A stretch of DNA of 64,000 nt from Chondrosia reniformis (Eukaryota; Porifera; Demospongiae; Chondrillida; Chondrillidae), in the NCBI GenBank assembly GCA_947172415.1, contig OX359198.1, positions 4,557,401-4,621,400 of the forward strand, in the 5' to 3' direction. A model generated the notes under the pieces. It was not told the DNA's origin. It did no database searches and worked only from the letters and a program-made list of their open reading frames with translations. Within the stretch, counting starts at the first letter, position 1. The number at the start of each line of letters is the position of its first letter. Below, piece after piece: positions 690 through 60,500 of the stretch. A program made the position numbers and the translations under genes.

Positions 690-1203
690 AAGTTAAATAA
701 AAACATTCAAAAATGAAGTTAAAAGTAGGGATGGCACTATATAACGGTGATTGGTGCATCTATAAAAAGTAACGATACAAGACCACTTCTATGTTTGGGC
801 GCATCATGGATAGTAGAAGTAGGGATTGATGCTCTCGATTATATAGTCTATTCTGCTACTTTATTTCGAGTTTTCGCCGAGAAAACTTTCAAAACAAATG
901 TTAACAAGAAAAAGGGGCAATACAAGTTAAATAAAAACATTCAAAAATGAAGTTAAAAGTGGCATAGTGAAACTTATTTAACTATACACATCACTTCTAT
1001 GTTTGGGCGCATCAATCCCTACTTCTGGTATATATCCATGATGCGCCCAAACATAGAAGTGATGTGTATGGTTATAAGTTTCAGTATAATGCCATACCAT
1101 ATGATCACTGTCTTGTTTCGTAACTTTTTCTAGATGTGCCAATCACTGTTATAGTGCCATTCCTACTTTAAACTTCATTTTTGAATGTTTTCATTTTACT
1201 TTA
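690..1203. mobile_element. Fold-back (inverted-repeat) element
   Basis: The first about 70 bases (containing ACATTCAAAAATGAAGTT and GGATGGCACTATA) reappear inverted at the right end (1,130-1,203). An inner pair of inverted segments around CTATGTTTGGGCGCATC lies at 790-810, 1,000-1,016 and 1,036-1,055. There is no coding capacity. The copy at 23,690-24,195 is part of the duplication. Partial copies of the same family lie at 3,215-3,450, 5,515-5,610 and 22,180-22,235, so it is a dispersed family. Confidence 0.7.
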
Positions 1204-1215
1204 TATCTATATCTA

Positions 1216-1249
<34 letters not shown>
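1200..1249. repeat. TA/TATC microsatellite
   Basis: A run of TATC units followed by about 17 TA dinucleotides. The duplicated copy (24,195-24,228) is shorter, as expected for slippage after duplication. The following 1,384-3,076 holds no exon I can firmly support; it contains a short palindrome and candidate exon-like open stretches described in the findings. Confidence 0.9.
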
Positions 1250-2650: not shown

Positions 2651-2713
2651 AGTATGTTTATGTAGGCAGAATAAAATTTATTAATAAAGTTTATTCTGCC
2701 TACATAAACATAT
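2651..2713. repeat. Short near-perfect palindrome
   Basis: TATGTTTATGTAGGCAGAAT is followed, across a TTTATTAATAAA centre, by its reverse complement. The pair gives arms of about 28-30 bases. The copy at 25,627-25,687 pairs even better. A second small palindrome (AGAAAAGTTTATATAAACTT) follows directly. It is probably a tiny non-autonomous element. Confidence 0.8.
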
Positions 2714-3076
2714 ACGAATATTTAGAAAAGTTTATATAAACTTTTCTCGAGTACAGTGCATACAAACAGGTAAACAAATACATTAATTTAGCAGAATGCA
2801 TATGTATGTTCACAACCCTATGTACATTCGTCTAAATATGAATTTTGTTAAAGCTCATGCCTATACACCAGGCCCCACTGGCTCCCTCACGCACCGCTTA
2901 ATGCTTCAAATGACGTATGAGACATTATTAATAAACATTGCATTCCTTAAATTTGTTAGAAATACAATGTACATATTAAACTTGGGGCAAACACACATTT
3001 GTGTGTCCTATTCTTATGTAAAACAACATTAGTTTGCAGACATTCCTATAAGAGACATACACAGTTCATAATATCA

Positions 3077-5339: not shown

Positions 5340-5617
5340 CTTAAGAAGATAGTAAGAAGTCTATATATTATAAACTGCTCCACCTCCCTCCTCCTCCCCT
5401 TAAATGTAACCCTAATCTTGAATTATAAATTCTTTGTTTCACTATTGTTCCTATCCAATACAGTAAGAACTAGTTTGGGTAGCTAGTGAAGACTGCTAAT
5501 AACGTATCAAACTTAATCGTACACATTACTTCTATGCTTGCAATTGGGTGCACCATGCAGAAGTAGGATGATGTGCCTAAACATATACATAGAAGTAATG
5601 TAATTTTATGTACACAC

Positions 5618-20000: not shown

Positions 20001-23000
20001 GAAAGGTCAAAGAAGCCATCAGGATCCAGAAGAGTCAGGTGAGAATGAATTTAGATCAAGGCATTGTGTTACATCAAGCCTGGAGACGATTTAATATTCA
20101 TACTTCCTGTTTTTCTCATTCTGCTGAGGGTCACATGACAGGAAGTGGAAATGGCGGGAAAAATCCTCTATAAATAGAGGCAATTCTTGCACTCAACCAT
20201 CAGTCACTGAGGAAGACCCCCAGGGTCGAAACGTTTGACCAAGAATTGAAAAAACCAACTGCGTTTTTAAACGCTCAAAAGTGGAAGGATGTACCATCCC
20301 AAAGATAAGTTCGACGCAGTTATAAGGAATCCTTATTCTATTACTCTAGAATTGTTCACTTGGATGGAGCTAGCCTATAGCCTCACGCTAAAGGAGGACC
20401 AAGAGCTAGAGAGATGATGTCAAAGCTGACTTAGGAGTTTGACATTAAAGTGCCACAGAGTCAATGCCATTGGCTTAAAGCAAGCTAGGGTGTCAAGAGA
20501 GAGAGATGTATGGTGTGCATGTTTTTATGATCACCTTTGTATGTGTCAGCCTTGGAGGAGAGAAGGACTATATATATATACATGTACTATAATATTTAAC
20601 ATATATGATTTCAGAGTCATGGCAGACTTTAATCACAAGTGTATATAGACCAGACCACCACTGAGGTCTAGAAACTAAGAGTTGCTATCTAAAACGTGTT
20701 TCGCATTTTTTGGGGACCTCATAGCAGAGCAAGAAAGAAGAAGTAAGCAGTTTATATACAGTACAAGTTACAATATACTAAGGTAATCTAATATAAATAA
20801 ATAAATAAATAAATAAATAATTCATATGGCTCCAAGAAAGGACCTAGAAACAAAATGGGCATATCATCATAAGGTTTAGGGTATAAAACTCATTTTAAAT
20901 TAAGGGATTTTTCATTTAGGCCTCCGTTTGTTAGAAAACGGAGGACAAAGTCTGCATATAAAATGCCATAGGACTATAGAAAACCTATAGGAAATTTATA
21001 TTGAAACCAAGTGTTATATTCATAAAAATTTTCAATTGGTCAGATCACTTTGAAACTAACATATATCATGGTACATGTCTATGACAAACATCTGGCGAAA
21101 TTTTGTTTAATTAAAATTGCAAAATAATCGAGATATAATGAAGAATTCAAGGTTATGATTGTGCAATCTGGTGATGTATTATGATGTAACTTGTACACAA
21201 GGGACATAAAAGGCCAAGGCCTTTATATACGTATATGATGTCCCTTGTGTACAAGTTACAAAATGGTCTCTAACCCTGTTGATTATGCCAATGCATGCAA
21301 CCAATCGTCGGCGTTCTTAGCTCCCTCACAAGGCAAATCAAATCTGCTGTGGTTATTAGCTGAGACCCCTTTAATACTGGAGCCTTTGTTGATATATGGC
21401 ATGCAGATGCATCATCTTCAGTCTATACTAAGGTGTGAAAAGGTAATTGGTAGGCCATGTGTTCTACCTTGCAATTGGATGATCTGTATCAACTACTACT
21501 CTCTATGCAGTAGTTGAGGATTTCAAAGCCTGCAACAGTACTAGTGTGACTAAAGTCTTGTACTGTTTAAAATACTGATTATCCTAGGGGTCACTTGAAT
21601 CTCTTTAAATTTGTAACTTGCACTGTGTAGCTAGTACTTGATTGTAATTTTAATATTACATAGTCACTTGGATCTCTTAAATTTGTAACTTGTACTGTGT
21701 AGTACTATATATATATATAGGTCCAAGTGACTATCAAGTACTAGCTACACATGCAGTACAAGTTACAAATTTTCCAAGTGACCCATAGGATAATCAGTAT
21801 TTTAAACAGTACAAGACTGTAGTCACACTGTTGCAGGCTTTGAAATCCTCAACTACTGCATAGAGAGTAGTAGTTGATACAGATCATCCAAGGTAGAACA
21901 CATGGCCTACCAATTACCTTTTCACACCTTAGTATAGACTGAAGATGATGCATCTGCATGCCATGTATCAACAAAGGTTCCAGTCTTAAAGGGGTCTAAG
22001 CTAATAACCACAGCAGATTTGATTTGCCTTGTGAGGGAGCTAAGAATACCGATGGTTGGTTGCATGCATTGGCATAATCAACAGGGTTAGAGACCATTTT
22101 GTAACTTGCACACAAGGGACATCATTTTGCATATGTATATAAAGGCCTTGGCCTTTTATGTCCTTTTTGGCCTTTTATGACATTCAAAAATGAAGTTAAA
22201 AGTAGGGATGGCACTATAACAGTGATTGGCGCATCTATATCATGTGTTCTACCTTGCAATTGGATGATCTGTATCAACTACTTCTCTCTATAGTTGAGAA
22301 TTTCAAAGCCTGCAACAGTGTGACTAAAGTCTTGTACTGTATAAAATACTGATTATACTATGGTTCACTTGGATCTCTTTAATTAAATTTGTAACTTGCA
22401 CTGCTAGTACTTGATTTGTAATTTTAATATTTTAAGTATTTGCTAGTAACTTTCACTGGGTAGTGTACTTTAGTGTAATTAGCCAGAAAAATTTAGACAT
22501 TCACTATGAGCAATTTTGTCATGAGATTCTACTGTATGTACACATGGAAAACGTACACACATGGATAAGAATAAAGCCTTGTTGAACGTCAGTAACATAA
22601 ATGTACTATTTCTGGACATTTCAACCTGGAGGTCTTCATCAGTAATACAGGAATGAGAATATCAAGTAGGAAATTAGTACATTCATGTTGCTGATGCTCA
22701 ACAAGGCCTTATTCTCATAATGATTGCAACAAACACTCCTAATTCCTACACATGGACAAGTAAAAATATGAACAATATACATATATGTACCTCATATTCA
22801 TCTTTGGGATGGTATATAAATCCTTTGACTTTTGAACATATAGAAACACAGTTTGGTTTGGTTTTTGGTCAAACGTTGCGACACTGGGTGTCTTCCTCAG
22901 TGACTGCAGGAAGAGAAAGACAGGAAGTATGAATATTAAATCGCCTCCAGGCTTGGTGTAGCACAATACCTTCATCTAATCTATACATCCATCCTTACCT

Positions 23001-24362
23001 GGATCCTGATGGCTTCTTTGATCCTTCTCCTTTGCCAGTGAATTTTCCTGTCTGTTAGGAGTATTCAAAATTAGTTTTGAAGGACGAAGTTCTTCTTGCT
23101 TGTAAGCAAGCTTGTTACACTTTTAGCTTCAAATTCTCTCCATAATCTTGGCCTTTTCCAAAGCAATTGAGTGGCCAGTCAGTCTTGAGGTAGTAAACAG
23201 CTATATATACCAAACCAAACCAAACTGCATTTCTAAACACTCCAAAGTCGAAGGATGTACCATCCCAAAGAAAAGTTTGACACAGTTAGAAGGAATTTAA
23301 AAATAAATGTATAGATGCATGAAGATAGTCACTATATTATAGCAAATACTGAATTCAAAATTACAGACCTTTAATGTGAGGTTTTTAAGCTCTTCTACTC
23401 CATAATTAGCCATTTTAAGACTGTTGCCAGTAACTAAAACAATTTTCTCACTTTTCTTACTCTGTAAATAGCAACAAGGTACATTGTTAGTTAATGAATT
23501 ATTAAAACTATATTAAATTATAGGTCTGCAAAAACTTTTTATATAATATACTTAACATATTATACCAAAAATTATACTATAGAGCTGAATTGAAGTATAT
23601 ATATATAAATTAAACACAAATTACACAGCATATATGTATAAAGTCATGCGTTATATAGAAACACGCTTCTGTCAAGTTCTATAGTATTATTATCAAGTTA
23701 AATAAAAACATTCAAAAATGAAGTTAAAAGTAGGGATGGCACTATATAACGGTGATACGATTCAAGACCACTTCTATGTTTGGGCGCATCATGGATATAT
23801 ATATAGTAGAAGTAGGGATCGATTCTCTCGATTATTTAGTCTATTCTGCTACTTTATTTCGAGTTTTCGCCGAGAAAACTTTCAAAACAAATGTTAACAA
23901 GAAAAAAGGGCAATACAAGTTAAATAAAAACATTCAAAAATGAAGTTAAAAGTGGCATAGTGAAACTTATTTAACTATACACATCACTTCTATGTTTTGG
24001 CGCATCGATCCCTACTTCTGGTATATATATCCATGATGCGCCCAAACATAGAAGTGATGTGTATGGTTATAAGTTTCAGTATAATGCCATACCATATGAT
24101 CACTGTCTTGATTCGTAACTTTTTCTAGATGTGCCAATCACTGTTATAGTGCCATTCCTACTTTAAACTTCATTTTTGAATGTTTTCATTTTACTTTATA
24201 TCTATATCTATCTATATATATATATAATCATATGATATCAAACCTCAAAGTCAAATTTGCAGTTAGTCAATTTTACAATCTGCCTGGAAGTAATTCCTCT
24301 GATGTCATAAAGAAGTAAACCAGTGATGACGGGAGGCAGAGGAAATTCTATTGTGGTCATTC
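17053..24362 (-). CDS. Gene A: KH-domain protein of unknown function, paralogue of gene B
   Basis: Exons 24,244-24,362; 23,369-23,461; 19,462-19,629; about 19,192-19,299; 18,393-18,833; 18,222-18,329; 17,590-17,824; 17,053-17,247, about 490 codons. Exons 1-2 form a KH-like domain whose GxxG loop is altered (YDIRG). Exons 3-8 align with gene B: LHDRQAIQLIPF, RFGWILW, RYQFVDV...CIRFEG|ILDMRI, VMYVSRRHRVVYQ...ERPYFITLIDSEE, SCRPPKGF...KPKIPTVESVLEELDHFM. Exon 18,222-18,329 has exactly the length and phase of its gene B partner (108 bp). The 3.7-kb intron 2 holds Penelope pieces and a 1-kb palindrome, but phases on both sides agree. The exon 4 to exon 5 junction is unresolved: my exon 4 ends in phase 0 while exon 5 needs two bases, so a microexon or a defect is possible. 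A 5' exon ending in phase 1 is missing from the model. Confidence 0.72.
19650..20345 (+). mobile_element. Penelope-like element, GIY-YIG end and 3' tail
   Basis: An open frame (19,676-20,173) encodes a GIY-YIG endonuclease domain: GVVYLIPCSECSAVYIGETG, then R...RLAEHKRA, and a C-terminal HWQRRKVKEAIRI region. This is the arrangement at the end of Penelope-like reverse transcriptases. The reverse transcriptase part itself is missing. The frame ends at 20,173 and is followed by a hammerhead-like motif and the dispersed tail. The insertion lies within about 30 bp of the acceptor of gene A exon 3. Confidence 0.85.
20203..20239 (+). ncRNA. Hammerhead-ribozyme-like motif at Penelope 3' end
   Basis: GTCA (20,203-20,206) pairs with TGAC (20,236-20,239) as stem I. 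Between them are CTGAGGA (20,207-20,213), a stem II hairpin GACCC-CCA-GGGTC, GAAA, a minimal CG stem III and TT before the predicted cut. Minimal type-I hammerheads with a tiny stem III are established features of Penelope-like elements, and this matches in place and form. Activity is inferred. Confidence 0.65.
20346..21179. other. Intronic stretch without genes
   Basis: AT-rich sequence inside intron 2 of gene A. It contains an AAAT microsatellite (about 20,790-20,822) and a small hairpin around GGCCTCCGTTTG...CGGAGG at 20,920-20,945. I see no exon. Confidence 0.6.
21185..22165. repeat. Large inverted repeat, arms about 450-480 bp
   Basis: The left arm starts near GGACATAAAAGGCCAAGGCC. The right arm ends with the reverse complement, and the turn is near 21,710. 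Long matching blocks include the segments with CAACTACTACTCTCTATGCA and GATGATGCATCTGCATGCCA. The arms differ by small substitutions and indels. A third, partial copy in direct orientation with the left arm lies at 22,235-22,450. It has no coding capacity. It is either a fold-back element or two inverted copies of one about 480-bp element. Confidence 0.85.
22616..22642 (-). ncRNA. Hammerhead-ribozyme-like core (minus strand)
   Basis: Minus strand: CTGATGA, stem II hairpin around ACCTCCAGGTT, GAAA, then TGTCC. The two invariant boxes are intact. Distal pairing TGTATTA with TAGTACA (one G-U pair) could extend stem I. The flanks carry the GTTGCTGATGCTCAA phrase also found near 18,100 and at the 54,920-55,040 inverted repeat. 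Confidence 0.45.
22840..23300 (-). mobile_element. Penelope-like element fragment, inverted
   Basis: On the minus strand it carries the Penelope tail, part of the GIY-YIG coding end and, at 22,866-22,895, a decayed hammerhead core (GCAA instead of GAAA). It faces the element at 19,650-20,345, so gene A intron 2 is bracketed by inverted Penelope pieces. The left duplication boundary (22,997) falls inside it. Confidence 0.7.
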
Positions 24363-27300
24363 CTATATATGGAATACAGACTGAACTCAATTAGTATGAA
24401 AATAAATGCAAGTTTTGTGAACCATGTGATAGATAGAGGTATATATCATGACTGCATGTATCCATATTCAATGTGGATATATATATACGTATATCATCCA
24501 ATAACACCTCAAAATAAACAATTAGCGCTTTTTTAATTGTTAACGTGTTTCGATGCTCTATATGGTTAACCAGAAATAGGCTCATTTCCTAAAGCCATAT
24601 TTTCAAGTGATCCAACACTGTCAATCTTGCATTCTCCATGCAACTTTGTAGACCATGACTGTCTTCCCTCTCTCAGAGTTTTCACCTTTGCATTTCTTTC
24701 AATAAGTGAATTAATAAATTCTATTTATCTCATCAATATATACGTATATGCCCATCTGAATCTTCACTGTTTCTGTTGTACCACCTTTGTCAATCTTCTC
24801 TGCATGGTCCACCATTGGTTTGATCACTGTCTTCAACACTGATCAACTATAGGCTTCTCTCAATTCCAGCTCCTATATACACATGCATATGCATGGTCTG
24901 TTGGCTTCTCATGCTAGCTTCATTTCTTTCACTTATAACCTACGTTATTTTATCATATTGGCACACCATACTTGCGTACGTATAATATAGCTCCTGGCAG
25001 TTAAAAGGTTTCAAACAGGGTTCATTACCACATAGACTATAACCTAAGATTTGATCCTGTGCTGTTTGCATTAATTAAACACGAGCCGAAAAGATTACAT
25101 TACCTTTTAACAATGGGCGCGAGGCATTTAAACTGTTAATTAGTGAAATCTACCTTGAATAATTTTTACCTGAATGGGGTTATTCCTTCAACATGCATAG
25201 TGATCGAGGTCAGAGCTGGGCTGAAGAATATCGATGATGAATGTATTATTATCTATTCCATTATGTACAAAAACCCGCATCCTCACTGCTGTTCATGGTA
25301 TGCTCTACATATTATAGAAACTATACTATCTAGACTACATACAACATTTTTTTACCTAAGTTGGCCAACTTGAAGTCTTTTCTTTTCGATTGTTCGTGTT
25401 TCGACATTTTGAGCATGCATCTATCAGTTTGACGAAGTTAGAAGAACTTGATCTATATTCTTTTCTTCGTCTTGTCCACGCAGCCTTTTAACTCCTCAGG
25501 TCGTCCAAAACACCGTTTCTTTAAACCTTGTAAAAATCCTGGAATTCTAACGTGATGAGTCATTCTGTCTTAGTCATGCACGGTTTCCACGAATTACGTA
25601 GACACCTTTTTTTTTAGAAATTAGTATGTTTATGTAGGCAGAATAAACTTTATTAATAAAGTTTATTCTGCCTACATAAACATATACGAATATTTAGAAA
25701 AGTTTATATAAACTTTACTCGAGTATAGTGCATACAAACAGGTAAACAAATACATTAATTTAGCAGAATGCATATGTATGTTCACAACCCTATGTACATT
25801 CGTCTAAATATGAATTTTGTTAAAGCTCATACCTATACACCAGGCCCTACTGGCTCCCTCACGCACCGCTTAATGCTTCAAATGACTTATGAGACACTAT
25901 TAATAAACATTGCATTCCTTAAATTTGTTAGAAGTACAATGTACATATTAAACTTGGGGCAAACACACATTTGTGTGTCCTATTCTTATGTAAAACAACA
26001 CTAGTTTGCAGACATTCCTATAAGAGACATACACAGTTCATAATATCATTAACTTTCATCTTGAGTAGACTGGGTCTGCATCTCATCATCATCTAACTTT
26101 GGAGCCAAGTAATACTTCATGCTTCCTTTCTCTTCCATAGGAAACTCCAGTACTACATAATTAGATACAGTTTGAATATGTCCAAGTTAATAAATAAAAA
26201 CATTCAGAAAATGAAGTTATAAGCATATGGATGGCAGTGCTTGCAACAGTGGCTAGCATACATGGTAAAAATATTGAAACGAGGCAGTATCATAGAGCAA
26301 GGCTAATGATGCAAAAGTGGCATACTGAAATTTAAGTGACTTAACCACATACATCACTTCTGTCTTTGGACACACGAAGTAGGACAATGCCCCCAAACAT
26401 AGAAGTTATGTGTATCGTTAAGTCACTGCAAGGCCAGGCCTCAAAGGTTTACCCTTACGAAAATGCTACATACAATCTCTAAGGGCTAGCTGATTCTGGC
26501 AGTAAAAAGTCTATATTTTTGAGAATACTATGTAATGAAACAAAGCTATCTAAAATAGTGCAGTAAATACAATGACTGTGTTTACCTAAAGGAGATTCAC
26601 TCTTAAGAGACAGTATCACTCTGGATGAGACAGCACAGGCTCTACAAAATATGTTTAGAAATCTACCAGCAAATGTCAGCATTATGGCCTCTTGCAGTTC
26701 AATCAATACCTGTAGGAAGCAAATCAGTAGCACACACATTACAAACGTAGTATTAAGGGAAAGCTACAATTTGTATATATGCAACAACATATATGACTGA
26801 TCTCTCATGACCTGTCCATACTCCTTGAAATTTAAGTAATACGAAAAATGCATAGACATAACAAAATCCAATCATAGAAATTAAGGTAAGGATTTTTTCT
26901 CAATGTGTCGAACTTATCGTTTGAAAGGATCATTTATTGACTTTTAGAGCGTCTAAAGATGCAGTTTTGTTGTCTGACGTTTTGACCCTGAGGGTCTTCT
27001 TCAGTGAGCCACTGTCAATCACTGAAGAAGACCTTCTGGGTCTAAATGAATGACAAACAAGAAGAGACAACAAAACTGTGTCTCTAGACACTCTAAAAGT
27101 AGAAAGATGATCCTTTCAAAAAAGAAATTAAGTTGAGAATACATTTGGATAAATAAGTAAAATGTTTCAACATAAAGCTGTACCATTCTAGTTTACACTG
27201 CAGGAAATTTGCTGAAGCTGGACATCCCATTTAAAATATTTCATTGCTTACTTGACTATCTTCGTCATCAATGGAAGAGTTTTGCCTCAAGTTGACCTTT

Positions 27301-28465
27301 CCACTTCCAATGTCTCCGCTAGTACTGAATGTAACACCATTCTTGGTGCAGGCAATAGTCACAGAGTCACCAATCTGAGACAGGTCTCTGCATATCCTTT
27401 GAAATTCAGTACTTGACATCTTTATAACGGCATTATATTGTGTATCCTAAAGAGTAATAATAGTGACAGTACGAACAGCAGACAGAAGGCTTTATAAGAG
27501 GTTTCCACACACAATGACAGCCAAGTCTCAAAGGTTTACCCTTAATTACGAAAATGCTACATTTTACCATTACTTGTGATGCCAATTCCAGAGAATTTTG
27601 AAAGTGAAATTAATATCAAACATACAGAAGAATTGTATCAGTTGGATATTATAAATCAGTTATATCTTCTCTCTGTATTAGCTTGAGTTGTATTTACACT
27701 GACCATACATGTTTGAGGTTCATAGATACTTTTATTATTTCACTGTGAGGATTATTTTTGATTCTGCTATGTATTACAACATGCAGTGCTTACAAACAAA
27801 TTGGTAATTGTAGCAGTTTGACATTACCAAATGCCAGAAGGGGAAATAAGTCATTTAATTTCGGTTCCATTTACTTGCAAAAACACCCTACATAGGCAGG
27901 CACCTGTTACAGTGATGTAAGCTATCATTGCCTTGGACGAAAAGGAAAGTGGTTATCTTAGACATGTGACATGTACACATCTACACAGGCACTGACAGCA
28001 GCTATAATGATTCTTTATCCCTTACGTATATTAAAATGGTGCTATTCTGATTTATCACACAAAGAAGCTTAAAATCATGATAAAATTGGTCAGAAAAGGT
28101 CAGAATAGGCATAGAATAGTATCAAACTGCATTTTTGACAATTTCTGCAATTTATTGCCAATTATCAGTATTATGGAATTGGAGCTTTACTAATTGAAGG
28201 CCACATATAACTGATAAACTTAACACTCACTGGGATGCCAAGCTGCTCATCGTCTACATCCATCAGCTTAACTTCATATTGTGATGTTCTGTCTTCATCT
28301 TAAGAAGAAAATAAGAAGTCTATATATTATAAACTGCTCCACCTCTCTCCTCCTCCCCCTAAATGTAACCCTAATCTTGAATTATAAATTCTTTGTTCCA
28401 CTATTGTTCCTATCCAATACAGTAAGAACTAGTTTGAGTAGCTAGTGAAGACTACTCATAACGTA
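22997..28465. repeat. Segmental duplication, right copy
   Basis: Partner of 1-5,506. This copy holds the working PCNA exons 4-7 and the gene A KH exons. Its similarity to the left copy ends exactly where a TA-flanked MITE begins (28,466). It contains the fold-back element (23,690-24,195), the palindrome (25,627-25,687) and the inverted-repeat MITE (26,930-27,130) described for the left copy. Confidence 0.93.
24363..26048. other. Stretch between gene A and PCNA with possible extra exons
   Basis: On the minus strand three open stretches could be coding: 25,166-25,215 (SITMHVEGITPF, good AG and GT borders), 24,740-24,841 (VIKPMVDHAEKIDKGGTTET) and 24,590-24,730 (IERNAKVKTLREGRQSW). Their phases do not join cleanly to each other or to the KH exon. 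They may be 5' exons of gene A. The same stretches exist in the left duplication copy. Confidence 0.35.
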
Positions 28466-38540: not shown

Positions 38541-41500
38541 TTAGTTCAGTACCCTACAGATGGGACAGCATTGATCTGGGGGGTAATGTATCTCTTCATC
38601 TGAGGAACAATCTAGGTGGCCACATGACAGAGACCTACAGTTCATATTTCCATCCTTACATGTGCTACAAAGAAAAAGAAAAACTTTTACAGGCAGCTAT
38701 GAATGTACACATGAATGTTTATCACAACATACAAATCGACTTCAGGTTAGCAAGCACGTAATATAAGACCCCTAGATTTAGCATGGAGGGCCAAGGATTC
38801 ACAAAGATCAAGAAGACAAAGACACCCAGACCTTGGATCACTGATTAATGGTGGAATTCCCAGCTGTCTGCCCCAGTGGAATAAAAGAAGAATGAGAAGA
38901 CTCCTGTATTCTTATCCCAAATCTTACCACTATATAGAAATTAATATGGCTTTATGTTTGTAACCTTGTATACATATATATCTGTCAGTGGATGATCTGA
39001 CTGGTTTTCGCTTTCTACGTAAGCTTAAAATTAGTTTTCTCTTCCTTTGTGCCAAACATTGAACCAATGAAAAGGATTTAGAAACCACCTTTACTAATAA
39101 TATGCCTGCACAAAAGGTTTTCTACAAGATATGGTCTTAAAATTGATGGTATCAAACAACGACAGAAATTGGTGAATTGGACATCTAAGAAATGGCAGGT
39201 ATAGTTCAAGTTTGGGGCACCTGGCACCCATGAGTTTTTTAAACTTGAAAGATTTATTACGGATTAGACATACGTAGCATGTAGGAAAATGATTATTTAT
39301 GTAAGTAACTTACCAATTTGTACATGGAGTATCTTTAATTGAGTGCCCATTCTCTACTATAAAAACATCATTTTTTGTGTGATAAAAACACTTGCTATTT
39401 TGCCTTTGGCAAATGGGACAACACTGCCCAGGAGGAGTGGTGACAATGTCTCCATAGCGACAGATAGTTATGTCACATTGATTAGATGTACATCTTAAGT
39501 GACCATCTACGCAAGTGCTGTAATATATATAAAAAGAGCAAAGCTTTAAGAAAGGATACTTGATTCTATTCCATGCAATCTGATATGTACTTACAGTACG
39601 TATACTTATATACAAGAGCATAGCATATAGCAGAGTATATGTACTTACAGTACGTATACTTATATACAAGAGCATAGCATATAGCAGAGTATATATACTT
39701 ACAGTACGTATACTTATATACAAGAGCATAGCATATAGCAGAGTATATGTACTTACAGTACGTATACTTATATACAAGAGCATAGCATATAGCAGAGTAT
39801 ATGTACTTACAGTACGTATACTTATATACAAGAGCATAGCATATAGCAGAGTATATGTACTTACAGTACGTATACTTATATACAAGAGCATAGCATATAG
39901 CAGAGTATATGTACTTACAGTACGTATACTTATATACAAGAGCATAGCATATAGCAGAGTATATGTACTTACAGTACGTATACTTATATACAAGAGCATA
40001 GCATATAGCAGAGTATATATACTTACAGTACGTATACTTATATACAAGAGCATAGCATATAGCAGAGTATATGTACTTACAGTACGTATACTTATATACA
40101 AGAGCATAGCATATAGCAGAGTATATATACTTACAGTACGTATACTTATATACAAGAGCATAGCATATAGCAGAGTATATGTACTTACAGTACGTATACT
40201 TATATACAAGAGCATAGCATATAGCAGAGTATATGTACTTACAGTACGTATACTTATATACAAGAGCATAGCATATAGCAGAGTATATGTACTTACAGTA
40301 CGTATACTTATATACAAGAGCATAGCATATAGCAGAGTATATGTATACTTACACACCATTTTTCTCACTATATATTTTAGAGAGTAAATGCCATAAATAT
40401 GTAGGGAACTATAAATTAGTTTGAAAATACTTTTTTTAAAATATCCAACTACAATTAAATAAAATTCCTGAGCTAAACAATACCGTATTTAAAAATTTCT
40501 TTAGAATACAGATGTATCATGTTAACATTATCCATATCAAGAGAAATTTACCTTGCAGATAATTAAAGCTATAAGTCATATAATGTGTTTTACACCACTG
40601 AATGTACATACGTATGTACTTTAATGGTTATATATACTACAGTCTCCTGGACTATAGATGAATAAATTTAATTATGTTTATAGGAATAAAGTTGTACTAT
40701 ATACAGTGGAATCTCATTATAGTGAAGCTCAAAGGGGACCAAAATTAGTTCCTTATATATATCAAATATTCATTATATTGAATGTATATAATAGTATACA
40801 ACTTTTGCTGGGGCTAGCAAAGTACTTCACTATATACTGAGACATTCACTATAAGTGATTTCGTTATAATGATATTCTACTATATACATATAAATTCACT
40901 AGTAAGTGACAATTGACTATACCATTCAGTGCATGGATCAGGTCTATAAGAGTCTCCCGGAAACAGGAGGTCTTCCCCAGCAAAGCACACTGCAGGAACT
41001 GGCTCTGTGATGATCACCTCTTCAATATCACAAATAGGGCAGCATTCACCTTGAGGTGGAGTTCTGTTCTTTGGAGGGCAGGACAGAGTCGGACAGGTAA
41101 GTGCAGCACAAATCAGCTTTCCCCCTACGCAGGTACTAAACAAGAAGTGAGCACTGTAATTAAGTACAACTTCAATCTAAATATATGTATTATTGGAAAA
41201 TGTATGCATAAGTAGTATTGTTTTTATGTAAACTAATGTTTAAATATCAACCAGTTTAGTGAGGGGAAATGACCATATAGCAGGAAAACGTTAAATTATA
41301 ATCCCCACCAAATTTTCCAGCTATACCATATCTGGGGAAACTATGGCATTACCATCTCTAAAGGCTACCAGACTGCTCTGACATACATAGCACTGCTGAC
41401 TGTGAGCAACCCTTCACTCCAGCCAGTAGACCAAGCTACCCGTCCAGCACTGGCTCAGTGAACACACAAAGGAACACAAAGGCCACCTATAAACACTTGG

Positions 41501-48500: not shown

Positions 48501-51500
48501 AGTAGTGGATTGTTGTGTCTCTATATACAGATAATGTCTAATGTTGTCATCATCATTGAGCTCTGGATATTACCCCTGCCCACTCATGTCTCCTGAGGAG
48601 CACAATGAGCTAATGGGCGGAACTGAAGTTCGCTTGATGGCAACCAGAGTCTCCCCAAGCCACTCAAAAGGATGGTCAAGCCTAATGTTGTCTTAAGTAA
48701 TTGGCCTATACCTTTAAGTTAGCAACGTATGTATCATCACATGCCCATCACATGACTTGTGGTTTTCCAGGACAACTCACTAATTTTGGTTTAAAGCATA
48801 ATTGTGGCTTTAGTTCTCTCTTTGGCAACTTTATCTCACCAGTGATCTACGTATGCATGGCATACACCACATTCATTGTTTCTTGTATCACATTTATTAA
48901 GCCTACAAACAGCTGGATATATACATTTCAAATTAGGGTTCAAATTAGGGATTGAATCACATTTCAAAACCGTGATTCATAGTATTATATCTGTGTAGAT
49001 ACGTAGTAGTAATTATAGAATAATTATAAAAGTGAACCGTGTGAGTTGTGATGTAATTACGTATATTACATCAATTAATGTGTTTTGTAAGCCTTATCTA
49101 AAAGTTTTTAATGACTGTATTTTCCATAATTTGTTTTGCTACATGTTTCTTTGATCTCTTTTGGTCACATTTAAGCTTCCTTTTTGTATGAAAGGAATGA
49201 TATACAGTTTTTCAGGCGATCGAGATATCATGCATCGATATGTACGTAGACAATATGTGTTATTTGTACTTGTGTAAACTGTATAGTTATTATTCAAGCA
49301 TCACTCTCCTAGTTACGTTGTCTTAGTGTAGAGTTATGTATACCATGTACCTATGTATGTACATACATACATACTGTGCAGTCAATAGAGGAACCACTGA
49401 ACAGCTGTTCTGAGCTGTGAGCACTTGTTTTCAAAGAAATACTTTTTCTGCTGACATGAACTGTATGTTTATCTAAAGCACCTCATTACCAGTCTTGAGG
49501 TAGACATTAAGTGTAAACTGTAGAGCTTTAAATGAAGATGCAGCTCTTTAAATGAGGATACAGAACATACTCTCTCCTGATTTTTCCCTGTTGGAGCGAG
49601 CAAATCTGATAATGATCTCTCTCTTTTCAGTGACCCTGTGAAAGTTTTAAGTTTTGTGCATCAAATTATTATTGGAACTTAATATATCGCTTGCACACTA
49701 TTGTAGGTATTGAAAATCAAATCAAATAGATTGTATATAGTTTGGTCTGTAGTTAAGGCAAGCTAGTCCGGACTGTACACCCTACGGTAAGACAGGGAAC
49801 TCATGACTGTATATTGAGGACTATTTTAATAAAGTATGAAATTATCATATGATCAAAGTGGAAAGTATACTTATATACAGTACTGTACTTATGATTTGGG
49901 CCTGTGTGTATAGCACAGTTATTTTCATGCAGTGATGTTCCTTATTAATGAATATTAATCGTCACTTTGCTTTCTGATATCACCTGAATTACCTTAAGTG
50001 GTGATGTAAAACATTTAATTGAAGCTAATTGCTAATTCATTATATCCTGCTATATTAGGGTATACCTGATTCACTTGTATAGCTACAGGATAATTGAGGC
50101 AGCATACAGTTTATAATTTAACAAATGTTAAACCTTGGCCAGTCTAGTTAATCTACTAAGTGCATGTTCACACCTGTGATCTCTTGTTTGCAAATTAGCG
50201 ATTGGCAAATTTTCCCAAAATCAACCTCTTTTTGGCAGTATACACAAGAGCTCTACTTATGACTTGAACATCCTTTCCCACAGATATCAAGACTCTTGTT
50301 TCCCACTTTCTATATTGCAATCTATTAGTAGGCATTTCTTTCTTTTGTTCTATGAATTCCAGAACACAAGCTGTTTGTAATTCTATATGATTGAGGTATA
50401 TACCACTTCTTAATGTAGTTCTATGTGTCAGCTAAAGCTCACATGCTGTCACTACCTCATTAGCTCTACATCAAAAGGTAGTAGACCGATGGTTATAGTA
50501 TGGGCTGGCTCCTTCCCTTACTTGCCAAGCCAAGTCCTGGTGTCACAGTGTTTATACTATATATACGTATGTACATATGTATGTGATAGAAATAATCACT
50601 GAGAGATAAAACGTCTGAGCAACCAAGGAACAGACCAAAATCTGATCTTGGTTGAGAGACCAGAGTCCTATAAAATGGCAACCAGTCATCCAAGATGACA
50701 AATACCATCAAAAGAACCACAGATAGCTGTTTCACCCTCTTTAGGGCTCATCAGTGTGGTATACTTCTGGTGGTGAGTTTGAATAACTGCCTGCAACCTC
50801 CATCACAAGTGAGACACTTGTGGTTTCAAAAATAAGTGAAGTTGGAGGTTGTAGTTTATAAACAAGGCTGAGCACTCACATTGAAAAGGAAGTTAATTGC
50901 ACTTAACCCCTGCAATAGAAATAATTAGTGAGAGTTATTAGCGTATTATCTGTCCATTGATTGGTCAGGTGTAATAACTTATATCTGTCCCATTATAGCC
51001 TTTGCACAGGCTAAGTGCATTTATCTCCCTTTTTCATGTATACGTATATATGTTAAAAAGGGGAGTTTATTGCACTTGAGCCTGTGCTAGGCTATTGTTG
51101 CAAATAATAAATATCACTGGATAATTACGCCAACCAACCAAGTGACAATGGTCTACTTGGCTGGGGGACCGAAGTCCTATTTGTGGCAACCAGTGATGAC
51201 CTCTCAGTCATCCAATGATGGCAAAAAATCATCAATGAACCACAGACAGCTGTTTAGCTCTCTTTAGGGCTCATCAGTGTGGTATACATCGGTAGCTGAA
51301 AATGGATGACTGTTCTCTGCTTATCAATCCACCCCAAGTGAAACACTTGTGGTTTCATAATAAGAGAGAATGGAGGCTGTAGTCAAGGTGTGAGCACCTT
51401 TGCACATATATATGTATACATATATATGTTTATGTGTATGTTCATTTTTAGCCTATCTGTTTAATTAATATATTAACACTTATATGTATATACGTAGGTT

Positions 51501-54500
51501 AGTATGTACGTACGTAGGTACATAGGGTCATTGTGTATAATGTTTCAGGTCATCAGTGATGATATGCCTACACACCCTAATATGTCTAAGTGTCAGTGTC
51601 TAATTAATATTACAGCTTTTTATGATGTAATATACTTGCATGATTTTAGGTTAGTGTTAATCTAGAAATTATGTTTTCAATTGCTATAGTAATGCATCTC
51701 TAGTAAGTTAATTAAGTTTTATTTCATTGATTTATTGTCATTTTAGTGATGATGTTCCAGTGATGGTTGACACTAAGGAAGAATCAATCTTTGGAGACAA
51801 GCAATCTTCTAAGTCGTCCAAAAATTTCAAAGTAGTTGTCAGAGTGAGGCCTCTTATCAAAAGGGAATTATCTAGTAAGTCTAAAGAATGCCAAGCAAAA
51901 TTTACCTGGGAAAATAGCAGACTTTATAATAAGAAGGTGATCTTAAGCTCAAATGTTCATCAGTAGACTTTGGATTTACCCCACCAACTCATGTCTCCTG
52001 AGGAGCTTAATGAGCTAATGGGTGACTTGATGGGAACCAGAGTCTCCCCTTAGCCACTCAAAGAGATAGTTCAGCCCTCTGTTTCCTCCTTATTAGGACT
52101 CATGAGCATGTCATACGATGAAAGTCTGAACTACTCTGCTAATGCCTACTCCCAAAAGCTTAGCTAAGGGAGGTGTCTATAGAGAGGGTGGTTACATTGG
52201 CTACAGGGAGGTGTCTATAGAGAGGGTGGTTACATTGGCTACAGGTAGGTGCCTATAGAGAGGGTTACATTGGCTACAGGGAGGTGTCTATAGAGAGGGT
52301 TACACTGGCTACAGAGAGGTGTCTATAGCGAGGGTAACATTGGCTACAGGGAGGTGTCTATAGCGAGGGTAACATTGGCTACAGGGAGGTGTCTATAGAG
52401 AGGGTTACACTGGCTACAGAGAGGTGCCTATAGCGAGGGTAACATTGGCTACAGGGAGGTGTCTATAGTGAGGGTAACATTGGCTACAGGGAGGTGTCTA
52501 TAGAGAGGGTTACACTGGCTACAGAGAGGTGTCTACAGCGAGGATCATGCACATTGGGCTACAGGGCTGTCCATGTACTTGAGTATATTCTTGCTCTTTC
52601 CGTACTTTTGAGGGCTTCCTTTAGGCACAAATCACAAGACGCTTCAACAGATCTTATAAGTTCAGATGTCCTTTTAGATAAGACAGGGTGTTTGTATTTA
52701 TATGAATGTATTAGTTTTTATGCCAAACATTTGATATCAAAATGTATAACTTAATACGTACCTCTACATTGATAGGGTAATTTTATTAATTAAACGAATA
52801 AAATGGCTGCATTCCCTGTAGTTACGTATGTATATTTATCATGTTTAGTTGATTAGTTGATTCATTAATATTTGATGTGTAAAACAAAGCACAATTACTC
52901 ATCAAATACCATTACCATGGTAACCAAATTGCATTTTAGATTGGCTGTTAGACAGTGCAGAATAAATTTAATCTACTCCAACAAAATGATTACAATAAAT
53001 TATCATAAAAGTTTACAGTTTACAAGGTGTACACAACAAACGTAATCACTTGTAATTAAAGCAGTGATCCCTGATTGGATCTATGGACCTGTACGTAATT
53101 GCTAGAGTAAAATCATGTCTATTGCTATATTTTGGACTAGTTGAATCATTGTAAGTACATTATGTAGTCTTTAGAGCTAGCAGGTATATCATTTTAGTGT
53201 GTATCATTTTTGTATTGAGTGGGTGTCTGTATTTATTAGCATTAATGTTATTAGGTAAGTTGTCTCTATCTACAATATCAAATGTTGGGTCCAATTATTA
53301 AGAGAATCCAGAATATGTTAGGCATGCTACAAGGTGCATGTTTGTGTCTCACTTAGACGCTGTGATGTCTAGGATATGAGATAATTTTGTAGACCATAAA
53401 TGTCTTCTTGTAAAATAGACTGTTCTAATATTACATTTCCCAGAGAATTGGAATGAGAATACAACTAAATGTATGACCCCACAATTTAGCATTTGATTCC
53501 CTAAATGTAAGACAAGATACTTGTGGATATGTATGTATGTATACAGGTGGCATATACTATAGTAATATGTAATATATGTTAGTTATCTGATCTGATTGTG
53601 CTGTAGATATGATTAATATGCATAGGAGGTTAACGAAGCGTACAAATAGAATAAACTTAAACACTACATTATGTAGTCCAGGGAAGCCTGTTTGAACAAA
53701 CCCAACCAGATTATTAGAAATATGTACAGCAAGGAATTAAGTAACACCTACCAATCATTCAAAAACTATATCCTCACATAGCCTTTTAGTGTGTAATATA
53801 TTCCTATGGACACTATGCGATGTCACTGATAAGTTATTCAGATATACTGTAGTTTAATTTGGAAATCAAATATGCTCAATGTGCATGTTTAGTCACTATG
53901 TGTGTATTCTTGTCTATTGGGACTGCATGTGTAATAAGTATATACATATGAAAAATCTACGATACCATTTTCCTACATGCTATATGCCTATTCTGTCAAA
54001 GAGCCTATAGGGGAACTAAACCTGAAGAGAGCTTTGGATGAAGATACAGGAGTCTTTTCTTCCTTCTTTTCCCTTCTTTCATCTTCTTTTCCACTGGGTC
54101 AGACAGCCATTTCTGTATGTATGCAGGGATTAATATACTCTTAATACTGCTAGTTGTTTGTGAAAGAGTAAATGTTTAGTGAAATCTTCTTCAAAAATAT
54201 TTCCTAACAGTTTACATTCAAATACTTTGTAATTGTATATTGTACATATTTCCACTGCATGACCTGCATACGTATATGATTAGCTCATCATCATATGAAA
54301 TTATAGGCTGCAAAAACTTATTTCAACAATTTATGACAGCTGCAGAGTGCAGTCCATATGTCTCTGAACGTGCATAATTGTGGGTCATATTAAGTGTGTG
54401 GTATGGAGAATCTATTTGTAGAAAAAGTCCTTTAATTACTCTATGAATGTGGCAGCGTCCAATTAGTGTAGAAGCTATTTAGAAGGATTAACTACCGGTA

Positions 54501-57500
54501 AGATACGAGCTTACTTGACTATATATGGTTACTGCTCAGAGCTTATATGTGTGAATTGGGATTGTTTAGGAGGCAAAAATTTGTTTTATTCAAGGTATTA
54601 TAACACTAAACTTTGATAAGGTTAAAGATATTTTGTGTATTTTTAGATGTTCGTAACTGTTAACAACAAAGTGTCACTGGTCATGTTTTACCATCTGCTA
54701 ACACGAATGGCTAACATAGGTCTCTTGTGTAACTGAACTGCATTTCCCATTCCATTCATTTGAATGGTAGACGCCCCACTTAGTGTATTCCCTTTTGTCT
54801 TTATTTAAACCTGACCTACAGTATGCATGTGGTATATGTAGTTCATAGTTATGGAATTGTACTATGCATACATAGCTAATGAATGGTATGTACTGTATAT
54901 GTACTAGAGAATTGATTATCTTTGAGCATCAGCAACACTGCCTGGAGACAAAAGTTTACTGCTTCAATTTGCAGGTCTTAATCAGCAATGAATGAGAGAT
55001 GCAACCTGTATCCAAGTATTGTTGCTGATGCTCAAAGATAAACCATTTTCTACTGTAAATGCAATGAGGCCCAATACTAGTGTGATGTGGTGATATGGTG
55101 TAATCTTTGTTGCGTATATACATTATGGAAGCCTTTATCTGGTGAGCCTCAGCAACATTCATTCTTTCACCATCACTCCCTGTCAACTTTTCTATTTAAA
55201 CTAGCAGTTGTAGCAATCCCTCAATATTGCTGATGAATTTAGGTAGTGTACCTATGTGTGGATACTTATATTCACTACTACAATTGAAAGAGCCTTGCAT
55301 TTATTCACACAGACATGTACTACTGTTAACTAATTAATTCTGGTTACATACATAGCTCGATTACTTCTTGTGTGATCTAGCATAATGAAAGGTGTTGCCC
55401 ATAAATATGAAGAAATGCTGTAAGCTTGCCATTAATTAAACATATGTTCCTTGCTGTAGTTGAAGTGTACCCATATCTGAGCACATTCTCCTACACTTCT
55501 TAATAGAGAGATAGGCTAACAAATGAGAATTTGATCTCAACAACTATGTATATTTATGAAAAAATAGTTTGTACATGAATGAAAATGAATATAATTACAA
55601 GTAATCACAGCCAGATATCAGGATGATGCAAGGAGGTGAAAAAGGCTGTGTTGGGAGTTGAACTCAGGACAGCTTATTATGACCACCAGTGCTACTGAGC
55701 TACTGAGCTACAGTTACCACGGCAACACTCCCCATTTACGTATGACTCCCTCTTAACTGTAACTAAGTACATTGTTAGTCTCCATTCTCACCAGTTAGTG
55801 ATTTTTATAACACATTGGCAATCAAACTCTCCTCTTTCTTGTGGGAGGGACCTTCTTAGCTAATCAAAGACCCCGCCTCTTTCTTGTGGGAGGGACCTTC
55901 TTAGCTAATCAAAGACCCCGCCTCTTTCTTGTGGGAGGGACCTTCTTAGCTAATCAAAGACCCCGCCTCTTTCTTGTGGGAGGGACCTTCTTAGCTAATC
56001 AAAGACCCCGCCTCTTTCTTGTGGGAGGGACCTTCTTACCTCTGGGAGACTCTATATGTGTAATTGAAGTGGTAACCAAACTAATTGTAATCACACTGTA
56101 TAACATCACATGCAGGGGAACACATAACTCTATACTATTACATGTGTACATACGTTGTACTACGTATATACAGATACAGTCATTTCTAGTAGTCCAAGTG
56201 AGAGACTACTTACAGAGCGGTAATGTAATTATTATCATATGTACACATTATCACACACTTAGTCCATCTACTATTACGTATGTACGTACGTACGTATATA
56301 TTCACTAACGGCTTACTGTGATACCAGCAGCAACATGGCAATCCCTATTACATGTTTGTTAATTAGTGTATATGTAACAGCTAATCTGTGGTTAACTGTG
56401 AAATATGCTAACATTTCATCCTATCCTGTCCTGCTGTGTATATACGTATATCTACATACACATGTACACACATTAACTATTACATATGTAAGGTCATATA
56501 ATGAAGTAAGTATTGTTCTTCTTCATGTACACCTAGATGATGCACTACACATTTGTATACACTATGCACTCCCATATCTGTTTAATGTGATATGTACTGT
56601 TTTATTTTTAGTGAGTAATGCATTGTGCTTGAAAATAGAATCTAAACATGCGATTCAGATATTCCCTGAAGTTAAAAGAGATCAGGAGGTGAGAATGTTG
56701 ACTTAGCCGATATAATATAAAGTGTCAGCATCAAGGAATGTGCTGTAAGTGGAAAGGCAATTCCTTTAAAACCAATGCTGACCATGAAAGGAAGCTACTT
56801 TGTAGTAGAACAAATAAAAGGATTAGAGAAGAGAATATTTCCTGCTTTAAACTACATTACGCACTGTACATATGCATGTACTCCATTAATGGTTTATGTG
56901 TTAGCTGTATGAGAACATACTCTTATAAAGAGTGTGATGGTATGGTTTGTTTGAAGTACCTATATGCCATTATCATTTTCATGCACATACGTATGTATCT
57001 GATATTTAATTTAATCTTTAACACAAATAGCAATCAGCCAGTGTCCATGCATTTGGATTTGATCGTGTGTATGACAAGAACTCTACACAAGAATCACTAT
57101 ATACAACAGCAGTCAAGGTATGTCCGTGTATAAAACCACATTTGATTTGTTCTTGAGAAGCTAGTACCTACGTACGTACATTTCATTTATACCCAGAATT
57201 ATGGTTCCTACAAAGGAATGTATGTATACATATTTTACTGATTGCATTAATGTAAGCTTTATTGTCTAGATTTGACTTAATGTATTCTTTGCATTCACTT
57301 CATTTAGCCAATTGTCCATTCTCTTTTGAAGGTGGGTTGCATTGTATTAGCTCTCACACGTAGTACTTATATAGTTATATAATTGTAGGTAATCCTGTTA
57401 AAGTAGTACATTGGCATTTTAAACTAATCATCTCAGGACTCTGCACTTGTTATTGTCATAGGCCATCTTGCATTCCTATCCTTTATTAGGAAGCCTGACT

Positions 57501-60500
57501 GTAGTTAAAGTGTTAAAACATGTCGTTAGATGAATGTATAATCATTAATTGACAATTTAACTAGCCATAACTAAATTAATATGCTCTACGTACTTCAGGT
57601 GCATGATCTTTGTTTATGTATCTCCTGTTCTCCCTTCATTGAAACTCTATAGGGATACAATGGCAGCATCATTGCTTATGGACAGACTGGCACTGGAAAG
57701 ACATATACTATAGAGGGACTAGAGACTGAAAACAGGGGAGTCATACCTAGAGTTGCTGAAGAGATATTTAACTGTATCCTGCTTTTTAACTCAATTAGAC
57801 ATACTGAAAACATGTAATATAGATAATGTATGTTCTTGGCTGTCTGGGGCTCATACATGCATTGCTTGGTCTCTGTGTACAAACTGTGCTCATGCTACAT
57901 GCGTACAGTGGAATTGTGGTCTATTTGATGGAAGTCAGGACAGAAGAGAATGAAGCCTGCACTAATATTCCAATTGAGGATGATGACATATTTGAAGGGG
58001 ATGAGTACTCTGATTAGATTTACCTTTTTCCATGGATATTTAGCACAGTTAATGAAATGCATGGTATACAATATTATGATCTTTGCTTTAAATACTCTTA
58101 TATGAAATATACGTATATATGTAAAGCCTACTAAATGAAGGCCATTATAAAGCAGTCACTTTCCTTATCGTTAAAAAGATATTGAAAAATCAACTGACGC
58201 CAAGTCAAAGTTTCTTGTAAGAGCTTCTTTTCTCCAAATTTACAATGAAAAGATAATGGACCTTTTTGTAAGATTAAACTTCAGTTACTTAATGTGTTTA
58301 ATTTTCAAAGTATTCTGCCTATGCTTTAGCAACTAGATTACAGGAGAGAATTTCCAAATGACAAAGTAGAATATTTGAAGATAAGAGAATCGTCTACAGG
58401 TGGTGTGTATGTGGTTAGTTCTGTTGGCACCTGCACTATTATTATGTAACCAAAGTATGAAGTAATGGTTTAACATACAAATGGTAACCTTAAAGCTGTT
58501 AGAGACATTTTTCTCAGTCAAGATTCTACACCCATTGCTAATATGTAAATGTACTAACAGGTACACTGGGTGGATATGATTGTATTAACTATTTTGATGT
58601 TCACTTTTCTGTTTTAGGAAAACCTTTCTGAACACATTGTCAAGACACCAGGAGACTTGCAGAATTTGTTGCAGAAAGGAAGTCAGAATCGTGCAACTGC
58701 TGCTACTAAAATGAATAGAGAAAGCTCTCGATCTCACGCTGTATTTTCCATTATTGTGGAACACTCAGAGCTAAACTTTCAAAGTATGCAGAACTTTACC
58801 TGCTTGTCATGTCAATCCTACTGTAAATCTACCACTAATTAAAGAGAAATCTTTAAGTAGCCTTTCTGTTTGCTGTGGTTTGGAGCTGTGTATGATTTCA
58901 TGAGATTATACATTTTAACATTGAATGTTGATTGTATGTATTTATGTGTCTTTTGAATGATACAGCTCAACAGAAACATGTGACAATTGGAAAGTTAAAT
59001 CTTGTGGATTTAGCTGGATCTGAGAGAGTAAGAAAGCAGGCTAGATTAGTTACACTCCAAACAGTTATTTATTAAGGATAAGACTGAATAGAAAATACGT
59101 AGGCCTTTTTACAGATATTAGTTATGTATATTAATGTGCATATTTTTGAGCCTCAACCCTATGAATAATTATTAAAGTTTTCCTAAAAGGCATGATTGAA
59201 GTCCATGAGAGTCAAAGTAAAATTGACTGTTTTCCTAGACCTACGTATGTATCAGTTGGGAAACCTACTTATGGATCTTTGAATGAGGATACAGTTTCAT
59301 ACAAAGTTTCTTCTTTTTTGTTAATGGTGCAAGCGAATGTTTCTGGAAATTTAATACTACCATTTTCCACCTGAAGGTTATCAACAGCAAGTGCTTTACT
59401 GATGAAGAGTAATTCTGTTTTACATATGTAAAAGCTCTGTGAAGTGTATTTTTGCTTTGAATTGCTTTTGACATTTAGGGGTCATTAATGTGCAATTTGA
59501 TACCTAAATTAGGTTGCACATTTTATATGAACCATATATCCTATTACAGACACACACATATCACGTTTAATGAACATGTCTATATGTGAACCTGTTTATC
59601 AGACAGTCTACTTGGAAATGTTGTGATGTCTCATTTTAGTTGAAGGAGTCGGGTGCCCATGGAATGAGAATGGAGGAGACTATAAAAATCAATGTGTCTT
59701 TGACAGCTTTTGGGAAAGGTACGGCTTTATATATAATGTGGAGTGATTATTAAATTATAGTGTCATATGAAGTGGCATGTACGTACATAGGTACGTATAT
59801 CTGCAGTGTTTGTAGTTTATGTGTATGTCTGCATTTAATTCTCTTGTCATGTCTGACTAATTACTTAGTTACATATGTACTGCCTCCTTTTGTTGCACAG
59901 TGATACTGGCATTAACCACACCTGGAACACCACATATTCCTTACAGGGACTCAAAACTGACTAGACTACTTCAGGACAGGTATGGCTAGCTATCTGTTAC
60001 TTGAACACAATTAACTATTATGGCCAACTATAATATGTTGTACTCATAAAGAAATGTCTATAATGCAGCTAACCTTTGGTTATATGTATTTGTATTTCCT
60101 GTATTGTTTGTGTAGTCTTGGTGGAAACTGTAAGACAGTATTGATAACTACCATCACACCAGCAGTGGGATCTTATGGGGAATCACTGAGAAGTCTCACA
60201 TTTGCCAACAAGTAAAATCTTCTGTTTGGTATTCAATTAGGTTATGCAAAAGTACTTGTGTATGCATGGAGTCATATACTTCGATTACTCTTTATGTTGT
60301 ACCTGCATCATTGAGCTAGTGGAAAGTAGACACTGTACCAGGAGTATGTAGATTCAATGCTTTGAGAGATTTGTGTTCATTTCATGTACAATCCATGTCC
60401 TTTAATAGATTTGTTTCAGGTATTTCATTTCATTTCTACTATTACAGGGCAAAGAGTGTAAAGAACTTTGCTGTTATCAATGAGGATGTTGGAGAGCAAG

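Follow-up and report, generated by a model that had tools for sequence, protein, structure and literature searches.

Metazoan non-LTR retrozymes, as described by Cervera and de la Pena (2020, PMC7229834), carry a canonical type I hammerhead with a 2-bp stem III and a tetraloop in tandem units of 150 to 450 bp that have a low GC content and no long open reading frame (ORF); they show target site duplications (TSDs) of more than 4 bp and share their genomes with Penelope elements. The available part of that paper calls Penelope a "strong candidate" for moving retrozymes, on the grounds that the two coexist, that tandem copies occur, and that both have hammerheads. With a purified Penelope-like protein of the green anole, both strands of the target are cut and extended, and synthesis begins at two neighboring internal positions of the RNA; the authors identify this pair of start sites with the genomic tail of 30 to 40 bp (Frangieh 2024, PMC11167929), and the word "retrozyme" is absent from the paper. 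The typical rotifer Penelope insert has an inverted head-to-head pLTR arrangement with a tail on one pLTR and a 9-bp TSD (Arkhipova 2013, PMC3846280).

We analyzed a 64,000-nucleotide stretch (the window) of the genome of the sponge Chondrosia reniformis, in which a sequence-only reading had noted a hammerhead motif within a repeat. From sequence comparisons, we consider it very likely that this repeat is a decayed metazoan retrozyme whose family is mobilized by a Penelope-like reverse transcriptase (RT) with a GIY-YIG endonuclease, through two-site priming on both target strands. In the open PMC papers that we consulted, we found no earlier report of a retrozyme family in a sponge or of Penelope-type ends on retrozymes.

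Hammerhead motifs and retrozyme copies in the window

The hammerhead motifs and retrozyme stretches of the window are as follows, with the unit, families A and B, and end sites 1 and 2 as described below.

48547 to 48682, minus strand: family B retrozyme fragment, unit positions 87 to 223, without hammerhead; 91% identity; 5' limit 3 to 4 nt from the hammerhead cut
50584 to 50948, minus strand: minus arm of retrozyme insertion 1; 72 to 73% identity to the genomic tandem unit by blastn; outer 3' end near site 1 (unit position about 235)
50716 to 50760, minus strand: hammerhead copy 1 of family A, the noted feature, in which stem III has a C-A mismatch and stem II a G-U pair at its base
50979 to 51037, plus strand: short plus arm of retrozyme insertion 1; 83 to 85% identity; outer 3' end near site 2 (unit position about 280)
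51058 to 51393, minus strand: retrozyme insertion 2, a near-monomer covering 341 of 359 unit positions; 79% identity; 3' end at site 2 (unit position 275)
51239 to 51283, minus strand: hammerhead copy 2, family A; TAAA for GAAA (G12 replaced), one stem II mismatch
51911 to 52160, minus strand: decayed family B retrozyme copy; 72 to 76% identity

Read on the minus strand from 50760 to 50716, copy 1 is ACCACA CTGATGA GCCCT AAAG AGGGT GAAA CAGCTATC TGTGGT. These letters bear out the hammerhead order that the sequence-only reading had reported, with a 6-bp stem I, a correct core, and a 5-bp stem II that includes one G-U pair. What was taken for a minimal stem III is in fact a mutated canonical one, with a C-A mismatch as its closing pair and ATC where most relatives have GTC; the parent motif is a canonical type I hammerhead with a 2-bp stem III and an AGCU cap, not the minimal Penelope type. 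Against the Rfam hammerhead model RF00163, copy 1 aligned over its full length (positions 1 to 45 of 45), but in a search of 701 bases its score of 25.5 bits (E = 0.00079) fell below the gathering score of 34 bits, which relatives elsewhere in the genome pass. A search of the whole window with RF00163 gave nothing at or above the gathering score, and copy 1 was absent from its list of matches with E values up to 0.5.

Copy 2, 523 bp from copy 1, reached 33.7 bits in the whole-window RF00163 search (E = 0.00014). The G12 that it has lost is the catalytic general base of the hammerhead. A 17-base probe with up to three mismatches allowed found two matches, both exact, against 0.11 expected, and none of 100 shuffles gave two. 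Because a second copy lies nearby and the probe matches exceed expectation, copy 1 is not a chance occurrence. In isolated folding, copy 1 and the two dominant motifs of the family gave the same hammerhead-like fold, and copy 2 was less clear. Since copies 1 and 2 each carry one damaging change, self-cleavage at the noted spot is doubtful, and catalytic activity of copy 1 appears unlikely; the two look like fossils of an abundant hammerhead repeat family.

We interpret positions 50584 to 51037 as most probably a single inverted pair, its left end (50584) belonging to site 1 and its right end (51037) to site 2, and positions 51058 to 51393 as a separate insertion. The inverted-pair copy is probably inactive, and the long-arm identity of 72 to 79% to the genomic unit makes the family A insertions of the window look old. 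The only flank that these insertions share is 9 to 10 bp of microsatellite repeats, in which a TSD is not distinguishable. The family B fragment at 48547 to 48682 could derive from a cleaved linear RNA. MicroRNA-like Rfam matches at about 50995 to 51097 more likely reflect the junction at which the two insertions converge.

The noted repeat had been placed in a kinesin intron, with its hammerhead opposite in sense to the kinesin transcript. Two kinesin motor stretches lie on the plus strand, at 58618 to 58839 (55.1 bits, above the Pfam cutoff) and at 60015 to 60212 (26.4 bits, just below the cutoff of 29.3; E = 4.3 × 10−6), and the minus-strand motif is indeed antisense to these exons. The ORF at 51712 to 51966 gave a weak kinesin match, with no Pfam family and with kinesins as the best PDB matches at an E value of 0.09. 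The intronic position is plausible: the motor stretches lie downstream of the repeat, but no exon was identified upstream of it. The window also contains a 5.5-kb direct duplication (1 to 5506 and 22997 to 28465, 93.8% identical), a tandem repeat at 55811 to 56041 that would encode a repeated 15-letter amino acid sequence, and tandem arrays at 52160 to 52566 and 39583 to 40353 with periods of about 35 and 54 bp.

A genome-wide hammerhead family and its unit

We searched the 117.4-Mb assembly (15 contigs) with one pattern for families A and B, allowing up to three mismatches, and found 585 sites (294 + 291); the reversed pattern found none in the whole genome. Separate family patterns gave 421 and 440 sites, which overlap and are not additive, the B motif being two mismatches from the A pattern. 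With RF00163, 51 of the 65 listed matches in the genome, themselves from 73 scored among 11,921 candidates, passed the cutoff, and most were of family B; none of 14 control genomes gave such matches. The commonest family A motif scored 34.6 bits on this model (four of four such copies, tested in locus L028). A chance hammerhead-like match in a kinesin intron might be argued from copy 1 alone, which is below the Rfam gathering score and missing from the whole-window list, but the hundreds of relatives with near-perfect motifs and the empty reversed-pattern controls refute this reading and leave its probability close to nil.

The 58 stretches that we fetched, together with the window, held 95 motif copies, 29 of them distinct. 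The core is intact in the two commonest motifs (40 and 22 copies), and stem II of the A motif is 4 bp long. Core and stem III were intact in 87 of the 95 copies, and stems I and II as well in 77 of 95, proportions that are biased upward because the loci were chosen by good matches. One motif comparison used 28 of the 29 distinct motifs, omitting one with a broken core (ATGATGA). Support for the stems came from 3 of 13 pairs that were changed on both sides and from a covariation score of 0.250 versus 0.141 after shuffling (0 of 500), both mostly reflecting a single A/B split. The claim that the repeat family encodes a self-cleaving RNA is thus partly supported: many family copies have an intact motif, but self-cleavage of the two damaged local copies is doubtful.

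Family A units measure 359 nt and family B units 354 nt; the two are about 60% identical to each other across most of their length and often stand in tandem, in arrays of up to about five units. They are ORF-less, with longest stop-to-stop stretches of 65 (A) and 57 (B) codons, and their GC contents are 42.9% (A) and 45.2% (B). The hammerhead cut site follows unit position 83 in both. One A unit folded with a z score of −5.87, and none of 100 shuffles was equally stable. Median divergence was 1.1% within arrays (12 comparisons) and 2.5% between A arrays (79 comparisons), a difference that copying of each array from a single RNA would produce but that homogenization can also give. In locus L028, positions 2662 to 2732 (minus strand) gave a subthreshold match to the hammerhead model RF02275 (27.5 of 52 bits); the unit that holds it is degraded, and its neighbors are intact.

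These features are those of the published animal retrozymes. The family has the canonical type I hammerhead, both window copies scoring below the cutoff; its units fall within 150 to 450 bp and form direct repeats from dimers to multimers; they are noncoding and low in GC; and TSDs, when present, exceed 4 bp (10 bp or more). Judged by these sequence traits, the noted repeat belongs to a metazoan-type retrozyme family and not to Penelope, a SINE, or a simple satellite. A Penelope pLTR was ruled out by the canonical hammerhead and by the lack of an RT/endonuclease ORF, the retrozyme unit having no ORF with the RT and GIY-YIG domains of an autonomous Penelope element.

Ends, orientation, and target site duplications

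The 3' ends of the insertions, in the ribozyme sense, cluster at two unit positions far from the hammerhead cut. Site 1 lies at about position 236 in A, after CTGATCAT, and 223 in B, after ATGATGATGA; site 2 lies at about 275 to 284 in A, after CTCCCTTTnTCAT, and 278 to 288 in B, after CCCCTATTTTTTCCAT. The sites are about 43 nt (A) and 55 to 59 nt (B) apart, with a hairpin-forming stretch between them (in the fold for A and by eye for B). We assigned end classes with broad ranges, 215 to 250 (A) and 215 to 240 (B) for site 1 and 262 to 290 (A) and 262 to 292 (B) for site 2.

Minus-then-plus pairs, in which the 5' ends meet inside and the 3' ends face outward, made up 35 of 62 clusters, a figure biased upward by six loci (L082 to L087) that were picked for inverted hammerhead pairs; without those six, it was 29 of 56. 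The remaining loci were picked from the best-scoring DNA and RF00163 matches. The other 27 of 62 clusters had one orientation only, which counts against the mechanism proposed below; one of them carries a 19-nt inverted arm (16 of 19 matching), and the others with TSDs show none. Clusters were split at every plus-to-minus change, so plus/minus pairs are uncountable among them, and the count of neighbors serves as the test of orientation. Among 200 listed hammerhead sites (100 listed for each family pattern), opposite-strand neighbors within 1 kb were minus/plus in 20 cases and plus/minus in none (P = 1.9 × 10−6), or 18 versus 0 after two duplicate loci were dropped. The head-to-head orientation of Penelope insertions is therefore found in all 20 of these neighbor pairs, but not in the 27 single-orientation clusters.

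We dropped four duplicates (C10:125284, C1:6441324, C1:6466913, and C8:2969148) from the pair count. Of the 31 nonduplicate pairs, 25 had one site 1 and one site 2 end (mixed ends), 1 had two site 1 ends, 2 had two site 2 ends, and 3 were unclassified. The C13 pair with two site 2 ends, when reread by eye, was mixed, with a 9-bp TSD, which gives 26 of 28 classified pairs. Seven later loci, one of which (L093) repeats an earlier locus, were picked by hammerhead positions only as a test, and five of their six independent pairs were clearly mixed; the sixth, in L092, was counted as a miss because its left end falls short of the site 2 cluster by about 20 nt. Mixed ends were thus present in 31 of 34 scored independent pairs, a total that leaves out the three unclassified ones, and they correspond to the two start sites and single tailed arm of a Penelope insertion. 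Three pairs break the pattern: C12:3553603, with both ends at site 1; C2:636228, with both at site 2; and L092, with one end outside the sites. In C10:5003781, too, the site 2 end, at 267, does not reach the main cluster.

Twin priming gives 5'-inverted copies and TSDs, and its second strand starts at variable internal positions. If another RT, that of a LINE, mobilized the retrozymes, L1-like twin priming could likewise yield head-to-head pairs with TSDs, and LINEs or Penelope-like elements are proposed for metazoan retrozymes in the available part of PMC7229834. We consider this unlikely, however, since both outer ends lie near fixed sites that are usually different and no poly(A) or other LINE-like tail was seen among the listed retrozyme 3' ends.

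In all 31 nonduplicate pairs, both arms come from one family. The junction shows an overlap of at least 2 bases in 16 of the 31, which fits joining through short homology. A few junctions have near-equal inner coordinates (differences of 4, 5, 10, and 13), as they would if the cDNA snapped back and primed itself to form the inverted arm, an idea prompted for rotifer Penelope palindromes by their palindromic head-to-head junctions (PMC3846280, available part). Yet the junction positions differ by at least 21 in 27 of the 31 pairs and the second outer end lies near a fixed position, so we regard self-priming as distinctly improbable.

Pairs are often flanked by TSDs of about 9 to 15 bp. An exact TSD of at least 10 bp was found at 30 of 60 insertions (two of the 62 clusters lacked enough flank), or at 27 of 56 without the four duplicate loci, compared to about 2.5% of shuffled flank pairs; in the later loci, six of seven had TSDs of 12 to 15 bp. 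The same retrozyme insertion with its flanks occurs at C8:2499233, at C8:2969148, and on C12 (L093, where the flank was matched by eye), in both orientations, and at all three the flank is duplicated together with the insertion.

If the repeats were satellite or foldback DNA spreading through recombination at the DNA level, with the hammerhead incidental, tandem arrays and inverted pairs would also be seen, and some copies are segmental duplicates (C10:101974 with C10:125284 and C8:2499233 with C8:2969148). Against this speak the dispersal of TSD-flanked copies over different chromosomes, the clustering of their ends, the low divergence of A arrays between and within arrays, and the many intact catalytic motifs; we rejected a satellite identity on these grounds and hold such a spread to be very improbable.

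Of 90 arms, 72 cross the hammerhead cut, none stops there, and 18 are too short to reach it; 9 arms cross it at least twice. The family B fragment of the window at 48547 to 48682 lies outside this count. Because 72 of the 90 arms run through the cut, the template of the crossing arms is, on this evidence, a circular or uncut RNA and not a linear cleaved unit.

Penelope elements and a proposed route of mobilization

The window contains the 3' part of a Penelope-like element.

19658 to 20170, plus strand: C-terminal ORF with a GIY-YIG endonuclease domain
20203 to 20239, plus strand: minimal Penelope-type hammerhead motif of the same element (19658 to 20343), 30 kb from the noted feature
20307 to 20343, plus strand: 37-nt tail of the element, between its two 3' end positions

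Elsewhere in the genome, L081 has a Penelope ORF with RT and GIY-YIG domains. The sponge Penelope elements carry the minimal hammerhead motif and have two 3' end positions 37 nt apart. In the inverted pair of L070, which has an 11-bp TSD, a tail is present at one end and absent from the other, and the two ends of L069 differ in the same way; L081, where neither end has a tail, is a counterexample. The tailed ends in L069 and L074 carry a one-base variant. No sequence common to retrozyme and Penelope termini was found, and the sole retrozyme match in the Penelope loci was 71 nt of unit A in L068. The window also has, at 26999 and 4043 (both minus strand), hammerhead-like motifs of the Penelope type from a more diverged subfamily, one in each half of the 5.5-kb duplication and both with a tail-like stretch after them.

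Satellite arrays resembling TACTAGTTGTATG lie beside Penelope or retrozyme ends in L071, L072, L077, L078, L081, and several retrozyme loci; this satellite may be favored as a target or may have arisen through repeated insertion. CTAGTTG satellite was present within 200 bp of 16 of 54 retrozyme insertions, at a density of 1.10 versus 0.83 per 200 bp at least 600 bp away in the same loci (0.028 in the window). The case for a target preference common to retrozymes and Penelope is modest, as satellite density stays high farther off.

We propose that tandem retrozyme copies would be transcribed, that the hammerhead would cut the concatemer RNA into units, and that the units would probably be ligated into circles. 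Retrozyme RNA circles are known in other animals. A Penelope-like RT with a GIY-YIG endonuclease would pick up this RNA, the endonuclease would cut both target strands, and the 3' end of each strand would prime cDNA that starts near two fixed internal RNA positions flanking a hairpin, normally near site 1 for one target strand and near site 2 for the other. From there the cDNAs would converge past the hammerhead site, sometimes for several rounds, and be joined at their meeting point, leaving arms in head-to-head orientation, a one-sided tail, and a TSD. We infer the cleavage, the circles, the action of the Penelope protein in trans, and the use of one start per strand on the same RNA. The footprint supports the published proposal that Penelope enzymes mobilize animal retrozymes; for this mode of movement, the insertion footprints are more specific evidence than the earlier grounds, and they make Penelope mobilization testable by a single in vitro reaction.

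More tentatively, the two sites might divide the labor at every insertion, site 1 serving one target strand and site 2 the other, probably on one circular RNA held by an RT dimer, a possibility that we would not yet favor, the more so as one end of L092 is off-site. If the sites share the labor in this way, a single paired-priming reaction underlies both the one-sided tail and the head-to-head pair. The one-start-per-strand rule would then also account for the one-sided tail and inverted arms of Penelope, and small ORF-less retrozymes would expose it more clearly than Penelope elements do.

L1 insertions have one fixed end, and twin priming on both target strands makes an inverted arm. The sponge retrozymes are like L1 in having an inverted arm attributable to priming of both strands; they differ in that both ends lie near fixed positions, usually different ones. 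Compared to the metazoan retrozymes of PMC7229834, which match the sponge family in hammerhead type, unit, TSDs, and the presence of Penelope in the same genome, the family differs in its sponge host and in its many head-to-head pairs ending near two positions, which are unmentioned in the available part of that paper. The likeness is to endonuclease-bearing Penelope elements (PMC3846280 and PMC11167929, available parts), with two internal RT starts about 30 to 40 nt apart, priming of both target strands, head-to-head arms, short TSDs, and tandem or partial-tandem copies. The sponge retrozymes depart from Penelope in encoding no RT or endonuclease, in having a canonical rather than a minimal hammerhead, and in the spacing of their sites (43 or 55 to 59 nt). 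The end features in the available published accounts of Penelope are nonetheless all found in the sponge retrozymes and, in part, in the Penelope elements of the sponge itself.
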